DNA of 64,000 nucleotides from a bacterium (GTDB lineage: Bacteria > Orphanbacterota > Orphanbacteria > Orphanbacterales > Orphanbacteraceae), in contig JALGYY010000035.1 of assembly GCA_025782575.1 (NCBI GenBank), positions 404,670 through 468,669 of the forward strand, read 5' to 3'. Under the pieces are notes generated by a model. It was not told the origin of the DNA. It saw nothing but the letters and a program-made list of their open reading frames with translations, and did not search any database. Each line of letters starts with the position of its first letter. Within the stretch, counting starts at the first letter, position 1. Shown here one piece after another: positions 25,491 through 31,370 of the stretch. A program made the translations under genes and the position numbers.

Positions 25491-28484
25491 TCACTGGTTA
25501 TTCGGGAAGCGGGGATCCCATCGGGGAACGACCGGGTCGTCCAGGTCCCAGTTCTTTCTCCACTCGAGAGCGCGAGCGGCGTCGATCAACCGGATCGCCT
25601 CCTCGATTTCCTTCGATGGGGTGATGTCACGGGATGCATCCCTCGCCACATCGTAAACGAATCCCAGATCGCTCTCACGGGCCCAATAGGACTTGCGCAG
25701 AATTTCGGCGAACTCGGCGATTGCCGCGTCGAACCGGAAGCGCGGGGGCGCGTTCTCGAATCGATCGTGGACGTCGCGGAGCCGAATCGACTCTTCCCTC
25801 TCCGTCACCTTGCCCGTTTCCGGACTCTCCCAGCGGAGACGAACGGTCGCCAGTTTTTTACTTTCCGGACGCTTTTCCAGTTTCACTTCGAACAGCGCCG
25901 TCACCTCATGACCGGCGCCCACTTCACCGGCATCGACCTGATCGTTACGGAAGTCCCTGTCCGCCACGTCACGGTTTTCATAACCGATGAGACGGTATCG
26001 TCGAACCGTACCCGGTTCGAAATCGACCTGAACTTTGACCTGTTTGGCGATCGACTGGAGTGTGCCGGTCAGGTTCTCGACGAATACGCGCCGCGCTTCG
26101 TCGATGTCGCCGACGTAGTAATAATTACCGTCTCCATTGTCGGCCAGCTTCTCCATCAGCACGTCGTTGTAGTTTCCCATGCCGAAGCCGACCGATGTCA
26201 GTTCGACACCGCGGGAAGCGTCCCGGGCGATTCGCTTCAGGATGTCTTCCGCGCCGGTACGCCCAACGTTGGCCACGCCGTCGGAGCAGAGAATGACACG
26301 GTTGATCCAGCCGGGCTGAAACGCGCGGGCTGCGTTAATATAGCCTTCGACCAGGCCCTGTTCCGCATTGGTCGATCCTGACGGGGTGAGGGAAGCGATA
26401 GCTGACTCGATTATACTGCGATTCTCGAGCGACATCGGCGGAAGCACGGTACGAGCCCGGCTGCCGTAAACGACGATCGCCACATGATCCTGCCCCTTCA
26501 GTTCATCCAGCAGCAGAAACAGAGTCCGCTTGACGAGCTCGAGCCTGTTTTCGCGGGCCATCGAACCGGAGACGTCGATCACGAATGTCAGGTTGGCCGG
26601 CTTCCGGTTTCGAACGTCGATTTCGCGTCCCTTAAGACCGACCCGCAACAGAACCAGATCTTCGCCGAAGCGCGAAGGTGCTGCGTCCAGATGAATGGCA
26701 AACGCATTCTCATCTTCCCATCCCCGCCTGTCGTAAGATGCGGGAACGAACTCGCTCGGTCGGGGCGGAGCGTAACGGTGATCGAAGAAGTTAATGAACT
26801 CTTCGACGCGGACAGCGTCCTTCGGCGGAAGGGTGTGCCGCTCCAGATAAGAGCGAGTGAGCGTGTACGAGCCGTTGTCCACGTCTACCGCGAATGTCGA
26901 GAGCGAATCATCCATCGGGTCGATGAATGGATTGACGCCGTAATGCTCGAAGAACATGGCGTCGAACGCCCGCCCGTTCACCGGGTCTGTGCCACCGACG
27001 GAAATGGGGTAGCGTTGTGATTCGGATTCGTGGAGATCATTCACGGCACCGAATAACTTGAAACTGCTCCCCGCTTCGGACTCACTCTTCGGCTCTGAGG
27101 AAGTGGGCCCACCCCCGCCACGGAAGAGTCCCTTTACATTGCCCCAGTTCCCTTCTTCAGGGGCCGGCTCACTGTCGGTTTTGCGAGTATCGGAACGGTG
27201 AGAGACATCTTTTTCGGGGGATGGTTTCGATCCGTTCATGTATCCCAGCGCGTGCAGCCTACCCTTCTGCTCTCGATTCAATTCGATCTTGTCGTGGTGG
27301 TCGGTTACTTCGATTGCATCGAGCGTGGTGCGCGAGGTATCGAGCTGCACATTGATAGTGGTCGTTTCTCCGACCTTGATTTCTACATTCTCAATTTCCC
27401 GGGAATAGTATCCGATTCGGTTGACTTTGATCTGATAGACACCGGCAGGAATCGACGGCACGCTGAAAGTGCCGTCCGACTGCGTAGTCCCTCCACGGCC
27501 GATGGCTCCGATAATGATATTTGCATACGGGATCGGCTTTCCGTCCAGGCTTGAGTGAACGGTTCCCTCAAGGGTCCCCGCTCTCTGGCTTTGGGACCTA
27601 GCCATTCTCCGTTTCTTAGCCTCGGCGCCCCATCGGTTTGCTTCGGCAATCCTTCTCTTGTCAGAGTCCGCAATCCACCGTTTCTCAGACTCCGCGCGAC
27701 GTCTCTCACCCCTGGCCACCCGCCGTGCTTCAGCCTCCGCCTCGCGCTGTTCCGCTTCCTGCTGCCAGATCGTGGCGAGCGAACCGACCGCCGAGTAAAA
27801 GTGGAAGACAGGCATGATGGTGCCGCCCGGTTCACTCCCTCGTACAGGAATGATGTTCTCCCGGACGGGCTCCCCGCCTGCATGAGCGGCCGGAGCTGAG
27901 GAGCTCTTGGTCGGCACATCGGAGAGCGCTTTATCCGCAGGTGCCTTGTCGGCGGGCGGCTTATCGGCAGGCAGTTTGAAGGAAAGCGTTCCATCTTTCT
28001 TCTGAAGCGCGGACTTCGCCTCCCCTGCCGCCTGCTTCGTTGCGACCTCTGCCGGCCGACTCTGTTTCACCGTCTTCTGCGGGGGCCGCTCCTCGTTTAC
28101 AATTACACTAGGTACAACCCGATCGTCTTCTGGCGCGACATCGGGCGTCACGTCGCCGGGCGCCGCATCATGCACTAGAGCACGCTCCTCAGTCGACTCA
28201 GGAATCCCAGGACCCTGCAAGACCGGCTGTCCTTCCTGAATCAACTCATGCGGGGCCGTACCTGATGCCAGGCGATCGACCTCTGTCTTCTTCGTGTCAT
28301 CGAGATTCACATAAGTAATCAAAAGCAGGACGGCAAGCGCCGCACCACCAATTGCGGCCGGCATGGGCAGCCAGGGGATCCCCCGCCTGCGCCCTTTCTT
28401 TCTCTCGTCCGTGATCGCCTGCCAGATCCGGCGCTGCTCATCGTCTGTCATTTTTGCGCATTGCTTTTCGAATTGCTCTTTCAT
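25491..28484 (-). CDS. Membrane-anchored vWA protein with carboxypeptidase-regulatory-like domain; candidate anti-sigma factor
   Basis: 997 aa. Order: cytoplasmic N-terminus of about 40 residues, one transmembrane helix (about 42-60), a long Ala/Lys/Asp-rich linker, a carboxypeptidase-regulatory-like beta domain (about 300-385; GTVHSSLDGKPIPYANIIIG, TTQSDGTFSVPSIPAGVYQI), a YfbK-type region (DSLSTFAVDVDNGSYTLTRS), a vWA domain with MIDAS motif FVIDVSGSMA (near 630) and a C-terminal DUF3520-like domain. Its start overlaps the ECF sigma factor stop (ATGA). The short cytoplasmic tail, TM helix and coupling suggest it could sense envelope state and bind the sigma factor, an inference from organisation only. 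Confidence 0.85.
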   Translation of the reverse strand: MKEQFEKQCAKMTDDEQRRIWQAITDERKKGRRRGIPWLPMPAAIGGAALAVLLLITYVNLDDTKKTEVDRLASGTAPHELIQEGQPVLQGPGIPESTEERALVHDAAPGDVTPDVAPEDDRVVPSVIVNEERPPQKTVKQSRPAEVATKQAAGEAKSALQKKDGTLSFKLPADKPPADKAPADKALSDVPTKSSSAPAAHAGGEPVRENIIPVRGSEPGGTIMPVFHFYSAVGSLATIWQQEAEQREAEAEARRVARGERRRAESEKRWIADSDKRRIAEANRWGAEAKKRRMARSQSQRAGTLEGTVHSSLDGKPIPYANIIIGAIGRGGTTQSDGTFSVPSIPAGVYQIKVNRIGYYSREIENVEIKVGETTTINVQLDTSRTTLDAIEVTDHHDKIELNREQKGRLHALGYMNGSKPSPEKDVSHRSDTRKTDSEPAPEEGNWGNVKGLFRGGGGPTSSEPKSESEAGSSFKLFGAVNDLHESESQRYPISVGGTDPVNGRAFDAMFFEHYGVNPFIDPMDDSLSTFAVDVDNGSYTLTRSYLERHTLPPKDAVRVEEFINFFDHRYAPPRPSEFVPASYDRRGWEDENAFAIHLDAAPSRFGEDLVLLRVGLKGREIDVRNRKPANLTFVIDVSGSMARENRLELVKRTLFLLLDELKGQDHVAIVVYGSRARTVLPPMSLENRSIIESAIASLTPSGSTNAEQGLVEGYINAARAFQPGWINRVILCSDGVANVGRTGAEDILKRIARDASRGVELTSVGFGMGNYNDVLMEKLADNGDGNYYYVGDIDEARRVFVENLTGTLQSIAKQVKVQVDFEPGTVRRYRLIGYENRDVADRDFRNDQVDAGEVGAGHEVTALFEVKLEKRPESKKLATVRLRWESPETGKVTEREESIRLRDVHDRFENAPPRFRFDAAIAEFAEILRKSYWARESDLGFVYDVARDASRDITPSKEIEEAIRLIDAARALEWRKNWDLDDPVVPRWDPRFPNNQ

Positions 28485-29059
28485 GACCTCTGCTCCTGCA
28501 TTGGGGTTGCCGAATTGAGGTCGGCGGCATCTTGTAAAAGTGTGCGAAGCGCTTCTTTCCCTCGATGATGGTGGACCCGGGCAGTCGGTTCGCTGATACC
28601 GAGCGATTCGGCGATTTCGCGAAATGAGTAACCCATCCACTCTCGAAGCAAAATGACGCTCCGCTGACGGTCGGAGATCTTCTTGAGCGATCGATGAAGA
28701 AGGGCCGCTTCCAGAGGATCACCGAATGAATGGTCCACCGGAATCTCGGCGACGTCATCGAGTGAGAAGGTCTGCTTCATCCTGCGGAGAAACCGGCGCT
28801 TCCAGTCACGTGACCGTCGAATCGCGATTCCACAAAGCCACGCTTCGATCGATCCCTCACCACGAAACGAATGAATCCCCCGTACGGCGCTCACGTATGT
28901 TTCCTGAAGTACGTCCATGGCATCCTCACGATTTCCGATGTGGTAGAAGATGAGGCCGAACAGCCTGCCCCGCGTTTTGTCGTAGAGTTCGCGCCACGCG
29001 AGATCTTCACCATCGATCAGACGTTTTGTGAGTTTTTGATCCGGTGCGTCGGCATTCAT
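28481..29059 (-). CDS. ECF-type RNA polymerase sigma factor
   Basis: 192 aa with sigma region 2 (DLAWRELYDKTRGRLFGLIF, NREDAMDVLQETYVSAVRGI, GEGSIEAWLCGIAIRRSRDW) and region 4 (SDRQRSVILLREWMGYSFRE, AESLGISEPTARVHHHRGKE). Regions 3 and 1 are absent, as in extracytoplasmic function factors. ATG 29059 (MNADAPD) is preceded by GAGAGGAA; ATG 29092 is an alternative. It is translationally coupled to the membrane vWA protein downstream, which may act as its regulator. Its own target promoter cannot be defined here. Confidence 0.93.
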   Translation of the reverse strand: MNADAPDQKLTKRLIDGEDLAWRELYDKTRGRLFGLIFYHIGNREDAMDVLQETYVSAVRGIHSFRGEGSIEAWLCGIAIRRSRDWKRRFLRRMKQTFSLDDVAEIPVDHSFGDPLEAALLHRSLKKISDRQRSVILLREWMGYSFREIAESLGISEPTARVHHHRGKEALRTLLQDAADLNSATPMQEQRS

Positions 29060-29194
29060 CCGGAGATTCCTCTCACTTGTTCGTAGTTCCATTCCCGTTC
29101 TGTGCTCATGGAGTCGCAGGTCCGGATCGGAACGTTTACAGATGCCGGGAAGACTGTACGATTATTTCGTGCAGGGAGGGGGTGAGGTGAGTGG

Positions 29195-30427
29195 CTATCC
29201 CCGGCTCGCAAGCAGAGTCTTCAGCCGCCGTTGAAGATCGACCTCGTCGCCGGGCTCGAATCCGATCTTTCTTTCGACAATCGTCCCCTCTCGATCAATG
29301 AGAAAGAGAGTAGGAATCCCTCCCACCTGATAAGTCCGTCCTGTAACGCCCCCCATGCGACGATCCATGACAACGGGAAACGAGAAACCGTTTTCTTCCA
29401 TGTAGTGGTCGACATGAGAAACGGAATCGTCGTAACTGACCGTAAACAGCAACAGGTTCTGCTCTTCAAACCGCTCGACGAGATTGACAAGTTGAGGAAC
29501 CTCCTCAACACATCCGGATCACCAGGTGGCCCAGTAGGCGAGAAGTGTGGGCCGGCCATCGCGGACGGCGGAAAATTGAATGGAGCGGCCCGAGCGGTCA
29601 GGCAGCCGGAAATCAGGTGCCCGATCTCCTATTAGAAGCGCCGTCCGAGGCTCAGGCGGAATTGAAGGCGTTCCCCAAACGACCCATTGCCCGGCAGGAT
29701 CCCATCGGTCGAGCGTAAAGGCCCGGCCGTCGATCAGGAATGATTCATCGAGTCTAAATCTTTCCACACTGTTTCGGTTCCCGTCAAACATGCCATCACC
29801 GTTCTGATCGATCAGGAGGAGATCCTCAGCCTCGAACAGTCCGTTCCCGTCTCCGTCGTAGAGCGCGAACCGCGGGCCTCCACCCGGAAACTGAGCCTGA
29901 CGGAGCTCGGCGGATTCATAACGAAATTGAACGCTTCCGTTTCTGGTGCGAAGAAGGGGGAGTATGCGAAAGGACGGGGCCGGCAGATCGATCGGCTCGG
30001 ATTGGAAGTAACCGGGATGGCCGGGATAAGGGGTAATCAGGAATTCGACAGTCGGATGATCGGTCCCCTGATACTCGATTCGGAACTGCATGTCGTCGAG
30101 CACCCCGCCCCGAGTGGCACGTAGCGACACGATCGCCTCCGTGCCGCCATCTCCCCCGCGGGGAAGTTTCACTGTCCATTCGACGACCTCATCCGGTGAC
30201 GGTACTTCGTCGTTCAAAGAAGCTTCTACTGTCATCTCCAACTGGGGCGAGGCGCTCCATACGGGATGCTCGCCCAGAGGAACGGTCTCCAGTTCTGTAG
30301 GACCGGAGCTCCCACCACAGGATAGCGCGAGGATCAGAAGGACGCCGAAGAGCGCGCGGGACCCGGCTCCTGCTCGATTGAATTCCCCAGGTGCAGTACC
30401 GGAAACTATTGGTCCGTAGTTTCTCAC
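29195..30427 (-). CDS. Selenocysteine-containing thioredoxin-like (TlpA/AhpC-TSA) lipoprotein, in-frame UGA as Sec303
   Basis: 410 aa when the UGA at 29519-29521 is read as selenocysteine. Order: signal peptide with lipobox ending at Cys37, a beta-rich domain (about 45-240) containing Ca-binding-like loops (DGDGNGLFEAEDL, DQNGDGMFDG), and a thioredoxin fold: APDFRLPDRSGR, LLAYWATW, then U303-S-G-C306, GFSFPVVMD and cis-Pro372 in GGIPTLFLID. Sec replaces the attacking Cys of CxxC. Sequence continues in frame with perfect family similarity on both sides of the UGA, and a SECIS-like hairpin follows. GTG 30427 overlaps the kinase stop (GTGA). Likely an envelope thiol-disulfide or peroxide-related reductase; the partner is unknown. 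Confidence 0.88.
29491..29509 (-). promoter_or_regulatory. Bacterial SECIS-like hairpin for selenocysteine insertion
   Basis: Starting 9 nt after the UGA on the minus strand, GTTGAGGA pairs perfectly with TCCTCAAC around a GGT loop (8 bp). Opening the top pair gives the loop AGGUU, which resembles the AGGUCU loop of E. coli fdhF from memory, and the distance from UGA to the loop (16-17 nt) is similar. This is the position and shape needed for SelB-dependent recoding. Confidence 0.85.
29519..29521 (-). other. In-frame UGA codon predicted to encode selenocysteine
   Basis: TGA on the minus strand falls at the first residue of a thioredoxin-type CxxC motif, in WATW-UGA-SGC. Many other genes in the window end in TGA, including ATGA/GTGA overlaps, so the code is not globally reassigned. 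Confidence 0.85.
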
Positions 30428-31329
30428 CCGCCCCTCTTGCTTGATCCGTGATGCCCGAAATCATGGGGAAGTCTCACTTTGAGCGCCCCCGGTTTCAGGG
30501 TGTAATCGAGCACCGCACCCGCTTCGATCGGTTCACCATCGACATGGAGCGGGCCCCGGTTCGTTCTGGTAATACGCGCGGCGCGACAACGGTAAATCTC
30601 CACTTGCGGAATCGACCGGATCGAACCATCAAAAAGTCTGGGTGAATTCACCACTACTTCGAGGGCGTTCAGACTTCGAACCATGACAACATCCAGGATG
30701 CCGTCAGTCGGGTCGGCTTCGGGAGCGATGATCGCACCGGAACCGAACTGGCTTGTATTGGCAACGGTCACGAGAAAGACGGGAGCGATCACTTCCATGT
30801 CATCGAACTGCAGGCTGACTTCTACCGGCCTGTACTGGAGTGATTCCCGAGCCGCGATCCCGAGATAGGGAAGCAGGCCGCGCACCTTGCTGCGGGTGAA
30901 TTCTTCGCCGACAATCGCGTCAAAACCGAGTCCCGAAACACAGAAGAACGGCTCACCGTTCACATAACCGACATCGAGCGAAACGTCGCGGCCGCCACGA
31001 AGGACCTGGTACGCGCCTCGCAAAGTCGAGCCGATTCCAAGTGCCCGCGCGAAGCCGTTCCCCGAGCCGAGAGGGAGCACGCCGAGTGTGGACCCTGTAC
31101 CCGTCAGGGCATCAGCGATATGGTGCACCGTCCCGTCGCCACCCGCCGCGACTACAAGATCAACACCGCTCGCTGCGGCCGATCGGGCGGAGGAAATCAG
31201 ATCTTCCTCACTGCGAGGCACAAGGACCGTCACCTGATCATCCGGCAGGACACCGGACACACGTTCCCCGAGTCGCTGTCTGTCCCTGGGGAGTCCGGCC
31301 TTGGGATTGACGAGTACTGTTACTTGCAT
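30424..31329 (-). CDS. Diacylglycerol kinase-family lipid kinase (YegS/BmrU type)
   Basis: 301 aa of the DAGK catalytic fold: N-terminal VLVNPKAG, the nucleotide-binding GGDGTVHHIADAL, LPLGSGNGFARALG, and GLGFDAIV. It probably phosphorylates a membrane lipid such as diacylglycerol, sphingoid base or undecaprenol-related substrate; the specificity cannot be decided. ATG 31329 begins right at the fold; ATG 31368 is an alternative immediately next to a hairpin that would occlude its ribosome site. Its stop overlaps the start of the selenoprotein gene, so the two are cotranscribed. Confidence 0.88.
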   Translation of the reverse strand: MQVTVLVNPKAGLPRDRQRLGERVSGVLPDDQVTVLVPRSEEDLISSARSAAASGVDLVVAAGGDGTVHHIADALTGTGSTLGVLPLGSGNGFARALGIGSTLRGAYQVLRGGRDVSLDVGYVNGEPFFCVSGLGFDAIVGEEFTRSKVRGLLPYLGIAARESLQYRPVEVSLQFDDMEVIAPVFLVTVANTSQFGSGAIIAPEADPTDGILDVVMVRSLNALEVVVNSPRLFDGSIRSIPQVEIYRCRAARITRTNRGPLHVDGEPIEAGAVLDYTLKPGALKVRLPHDFGHHGSSKRGG

Positions 31330-31370
31330 GACGGAAGTCAGGATAGCAGAAGTGGATTCGGGTGCCATGC

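Follow-up and report, generated by a model that had tools for sequence, protein, structure and literature searches.

The gene under study is located on the minus strand of the window, the 64-kb stretch of DNA that was analysed, at positions 29195–30427. The host genome of the window is 4.88 Mb in size, comprises 49 contigs and is 95% complete. From a GTG start codon at 30427 the reading frame contains a single TGA (29521–29519, minus strand) and then remains open until a TAG stop codon that ends at 29195. With the TGA read as a putative selenocysteine (Sec303), the product would be a selenoprotein of 410 residues. Directly upstream, on the same strand, lies a gene for a lipid kinase of the YegS/diacylglycerol-kinase type (30424–31368), the stop of which overlaps the start of the selenoprotein gene by four bases (GTGA). 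This gene pair, with the kinase first, is kept in all five orthologous loci, and the arrangement suggests that kinase and selenoprotein are co-translated. Positions 25491–29092 of the window contain a gene for an ECF-type sigma factor, followed by one for a large VWA, YfbK C-terminal and carboxypeptidase-regulatory-like protein; the sigma factor/VWA pair is also found near the orthologue at locus L099, about 5 kb further away.

The encoded protein begins with a predicted signal peptide and lipobox (LALS-C37; 30317–30427, minus strand), assigned by a sequence rule. The signal peptide is conserved, and Cys37 invariant, in six sequences, comprising all five orthologues and a Cys-containing homologue. 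Residues 38–262 (29642–30316, minus strand) form a beta-rich domain that is predicted to be all-beta with a mean pLDDT of 80.2, and for which searches with Pfam, NCBIfam, PDB sequences and folds gave no relative (best fold match E = 0.06, TM about 0.2). The domain contains a conserved acidic stretch, DxDxNG...DxNxDGxxDGNRNS (residues 191–215 and on; 29783–29857, minus strand), with columns that are invariant in the orthologues. This stretch has the look of calcium loops and may possibly bind metal. The initial annotation had described the region as a beta/EF-hand-like domain; its beta-rich nature agrees with the prediction, but the EF-hand label amounts to a weak motif resemblance (Pfam EF-hand with 11.1 bits and E = 0.38, below the cut-off of 25 bits). 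The C-terminal part (residues 264–410; 29198–29638, minus strand) is an AhpC-TSA/ResA-TlpA-like domain of the thioredoxin fold, with the active-site motif U303-S-G-C306 and a cis-proline, Pro372, in the sequence GGIPT. Its predicted model (mean pLDDT 75.8) is nearest to ResA/DsbE. The Pfam domain, the NCBIfam scores and the nearest PDB folds all support the earlier assignment of the protein as a TlpA-like lipoprotein.

Read through the TGA, the active site has the context WATW-U-SGC-VEEVPQL, and 107 residues follow U303. Pfam recognizes one AhpC-TSA domain that runs without interruption across the TGA (residues 266–385, 78.1 bits, cut-off 26), and the UGA aligns with the catalytic Cys of homologous proteins. 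Both the location of the TGA (29519–29521, minus strand) at the first Cys of a CxxC motif and the continuation of the frame for 107 codons with thioredoxin features, as originally proposed, are thereby confirmed.

The candidate phylum is represented by seven genomes of one family, five of which carry a full-length copy of the gene, namely the present genome and four others; the orthologues span three genera, including that of the genome studied here. The four orthologues are 42–47% identical to the present protein (E values of 1e-83 to 1e-103). The TGA is found at the identical codon in all five copies, and the coding sequence downstream of it is conserved as well. Identity to the present protein amounts to 58–62% in the part after the TGA, as compared to 39–40% in the part before it. 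The dN/dS ratio of the post-TGA part (Nei-Gojobori) is 0.14–0.20 for close pairs and for pairs with the present protein, and 0.50 for the remaining pair (L055/L057). The better conservation and low dN/dS beyond the TGA therefore indicate that this sequence is translated and selected. The relatives thus retain the TGA together with a downstream part that is not degenerate, which settles the comparison of homologues suggested in the initial annotation, and the presence of the same TGA in five independent genomes excludes a base-call error. Were the TGA a true stop, the gene would be a truncated pseudogene, or would encode a 302-residue protein followed by an independent downstream ORF. With translation table 11 the ORF does end at 29519, and an ORF of 85 residues with a TTG start lies downstream. 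However, five species belonging to three genera share the codon, purifying selection is strong both before and after it, there are neither frameshifts nor further stops, and termination would cost every species half of the active site, which makes a true stop extremely improbable.

Named records that belong to this group comprise Candidatus Eisenbacteria OFTM309 (JAJCZU010000006.1) along with two MAGs that were submitted under the name Gemmatimonadetes (JABDJQ010000395.1 and JAGUYC010000324.1). In the search of genome contigs a single-protein query gave no match and an alignment query gave four, and plasmid records yielded ordinary TlpA/ResA matches only. The orthologue is absent from two genomes of the phylum (G001 and G003), though both contain tRNA-Sec and SelB, so that Sec is presumably used elsewhere in these genomes. 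In G005, a fragmented genome that is 82% complete, SelB was found and tRNA-Sec was not.

Nine nucleotides past the TGA begins a perfect hairpin, GTTGAGGA-GGT-TCCTCAAC (29491–29509, minus strand), with eight Watson-Crick pairs, a loop of 3 nt and a distance of 17 nt from the UGA to the loop, in agreement with the 8-bp, GGU-loop hairpin first noticed there. According to the rules given in PMC13188914, bacterial SECIS elements have a loop of 3–9 nt with a G within the first two positions, a stem of 4–16 bp, a spacing of 16–37 nt and an MFE of at most -7.5. The hairpin satisfies all of these limits (GGU loop of 3 nt, 8 bp, 17 nt, -13.5 kcal/mol). Of the 2024 TGA triplets in the window, counted over both strands, only one has a perfect hairpin with an 8-bp stem and a 3-nt loop at that offset. 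When the same peptide is recoded with synonymous codons, an 8-bp stem within the 39 nt past the TGA turns up in 0.05% of cases. For each of the five orthologues the probability of such a stem, given its own peptide and local codon usage, is 0.0003–0.0005; nevertheless, all five share one and the same stem of 8 bp, with a 3-nt loop starting with G, at the identical offset. Amino-acid-invariant columns have identical codons in five of six cases within the hairpin, versus 14 of 102 elsewhere (Fisher p = 5.6e-4), and the frozen codons GTT, CCT and CAA are locally non-preferred. In a comparison of 47 distinct thioredoxin CxxC/UxxC sites from the retrieved loci, an 8-bp stem is present only at the TGA sites and in one Cys-containing relative, the next-best stem, which no other Cys site exceeds, being 6 bp.

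The hairpin might also be a by-product of codon or peptide constraint, with Sec insertion directed by another element. Consistent with this, its folding energy is only mildly below that of recoded sequences (z -1.85), because the peptide VEExPQL itself favours a stem; folding energy was dropped as proof of a SECIS element, and precise base pairing and its conservation were relied on instead. The Sec clade shows no covariation, since the hairpin is almost invariant and is partly forced by the same peptide, and the sole compensatory pair occurs in the Cys relative (G277). An Rfam search around the gene gave no match. Nevertheless, the rarity of the exact pairing under synonymous recoding, the freezing of codons against local preference and the agreement with every bSECIS constraint make a by-product very unlikely.

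Components of the Sec machinery, a search for which had been recommended in the initial annotation, were all found in the genome, i.e., tRNA-Sec with anticodon TCA (72.7 bits), SelA (524.6 bits), SelB (378.6 bits) and SelD (379.1 bits). Readthrough of the UGA without Sec, either by a near-cognate tRNA or by genome-wide reassignment of UGA, would preserve the downstream frame likewise. Such readthrough is scarcely credible, however, in view of the position of the codon at the catalytic Cys of CxxC, as in the Cys homologue, and of the SECIS-type hairpin and full Sec pathway; moreover, TGA ends other genes of the window, such as the kinase gene ending at 30424, and occurs in the selD gene at its Sec position. 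By the sequence criteria, the reading of the TGA as selenocysteine is close to certain, and that the gene encodes a selenoprotein is held with very high confidence.

The in-frame TGA of selD has the context ATKAG-U-AAK (L104:1531-1533, G000:C46). SelD of this genome is thus probably a selenoprotein itself, an indication that the gene under study is not the only one here to use Sec. Formate dehydrogenase was also considered as a second selenoprotein and was rejected, as no homologue with a TGA was found.

The Cys-containing relative with an 8-bp stem, G277 (JAGLYR010000024.1, MAG RS_13_32), belongs to a different phylum and shows the whole architecture with Cys instead of Sec (WAS-G-C-GGC, TGC at L058:1484). 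It keeps a perfect 8-bp hairpin at the same offset, GTTGCGGA-GTT-TCCGCAAC (L058:1484-1514), in which one A-U pair is replaced by C-G, a synonymous CCT-to-CCG difference exactly compensating a GAG-to-GCG difference. Given the peptide, the chance of this exact pairing is about 0.0008. The G277 genome contains tRNA-Sec (anticodon TCA) and SelB. An altered codon meaning in G277 was considered and rejected: the second hit to pass the tRNA-Sec threshold is, according to ARAGORN, a tRNA-Leu, and the tRNA-Sec has anticodon TCA, so that nothing points to recoding of a Cys codon. The phylogenetic tree places G277 next to the Sec clade as its sister (support of 100/99 for the six together), and the outer Cys homologues are without hairpin. 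The simplest count is therefore a single Cys-to-Sec change, in which case Cys would be ancestral in G277, without any reversion, and its hairpin would predate Sec as a pre-adaptation or have arisen by chance; in line with this, a search of its own phylum gave no Sec relative. Against it stand the low chance of the exact hairpin, the exact compensation by a synonymous change, the tRNA-Sec and SelB of the genome, and the precedent of SECIS-like remnants described earlier in Cys homologues (PMC1794560), and we regard an ancestral Cys as a credible but rather less probable explanation. The hairpin of G277 is likely a remnant SECIS element, and the likeliest history, its direction being read from one sequence on a long branch, is a Sec-containing ancestor followed by a recent Sec-to-Cys change in G277. 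Bacterial changes of this type are rare and mostly confined to FdhA and SelD, as stated in PMC13188914.

In reviews, selenoproteins are grouped according to domain and Sec motif, and UxxC selenoproteins with PF00578, cd02966 (also as UGC) and PF08534 domains are already catalogued (PMC9312934, PMC13188914). With the Prx-like thiol:disulfide oxidoreductase selenoproteins (PF00578, UxxC/UxxU; PMC9312934, PMC13188914) the present protein shares PF00578, a UxxC motif that begins with Sec and a SECIS element; its PF00578 score (78.1 bits, cut-off 26) and its U303-S-G-C306 motif place it among their UxxC members. Unlike these, the domain is fused C-terminally to a beta-rich lipoprotein domain, and the proteins constitute a separate orthologous group in one candidate phylum. 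The thiol-disulfide isomerase-like, UGC-containing TlpA and Redoxin-family selenoproteins (cd02966, PF08534; PMC13188914) have a similar TlpA/redoxin fold with an attacking Sec, but in the table of that source the N-terminal domain is not described for them. The NCBIfam family NF041054 (ResA-like WAxxUGC), the nearest curated model, is alike in its ResA-like domain, WAxxU motif and UGA-encoded Sec, but has UGC in the motif of its name where UxGC (UxxC) is found here, and differs in the N-terminal part; three orthologues score 49.8, 40.2 and 47.7 bits against its cut-off of 300. ResA, DsbE and StoA (closest PDB entries 4nmu, 3gl3 and 1st9) have the same fold, position of the CxxC site and cis-proline, but are single-domain Cys proteins, whereas here Sec occurs in a two-domain protein, with scores of 88 bits for the ResA equivalog (cut-off 170) and 52 bits for DsbE (cut-off 123). 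Comparable N-terminal parts are found ahead of Cys-type TlpA domains in other phyla (G012, G106 and G088), which indicates that the fusion is probably older than Sec. The selenoprotein had been announced as new, and this is correct for the orthologous group and the N-terminal domain but not for the kind: with UxxC Prx/TlpA-like selenoproteins known and catalogued, it represents a new orthologous group within a known kind. TlpA/redoxin-like genes with one in-frame TGA are also seen in other phyla (G012, G022, G037, G038, G054, G306 and others), and probably encode more UxxC selenoproteins.

In the mechanism that we propose, SelB carrying Sec-tRNA-Sec would bind the hairpin 9 nt past UGA 303, so that Sec would be inserted there in place of termination. 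The product would then be exported and lipid-anchored at Cys37. In the ResA/TlpA-like C-terminal domain the selenolate of Sec303 would attack and Cys306 would resolve, and disulfides or peroxides would be reduced outside the cytoplasm, both the reductive direction and the substrates being presumed; the N-terminal beta domain probably binds a substrate or partner. The protein is most likely a thiol/selenol oxidoreductase that is exported, anchored by lipid and, like ResA/TlpA, active in the reducing direction.

A literature search retrieved no paper naming Eisenbacteria together with selenocysteine. We tentatively suggest, with somewhat divided confidence, that the proteins form a distinct subfamily, in which a new beta-rich, calcium-binding-like lipoprotein domain is joined to a Sec-containing TlpA domain, which is coupled to a lipid kinase, and in which one recent Sec-to-Cys reversion has kept a functional-looking SECIS element. 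With these findings a candidate phylum gains a well-supported group of selenoproteins. In each genome with this gene, standard annotation, which stops at the TGA, would split the protein halfway through its active site. The Cys form of G277 with its matching hairpin is a tangible example on which Sec-to-Cys conversion can be studied and, if the proposed history is true, would represent a Sec-to-Cys reversion beyond the families, chiefly FdhA and SelD, to which such cases are said to be confined.
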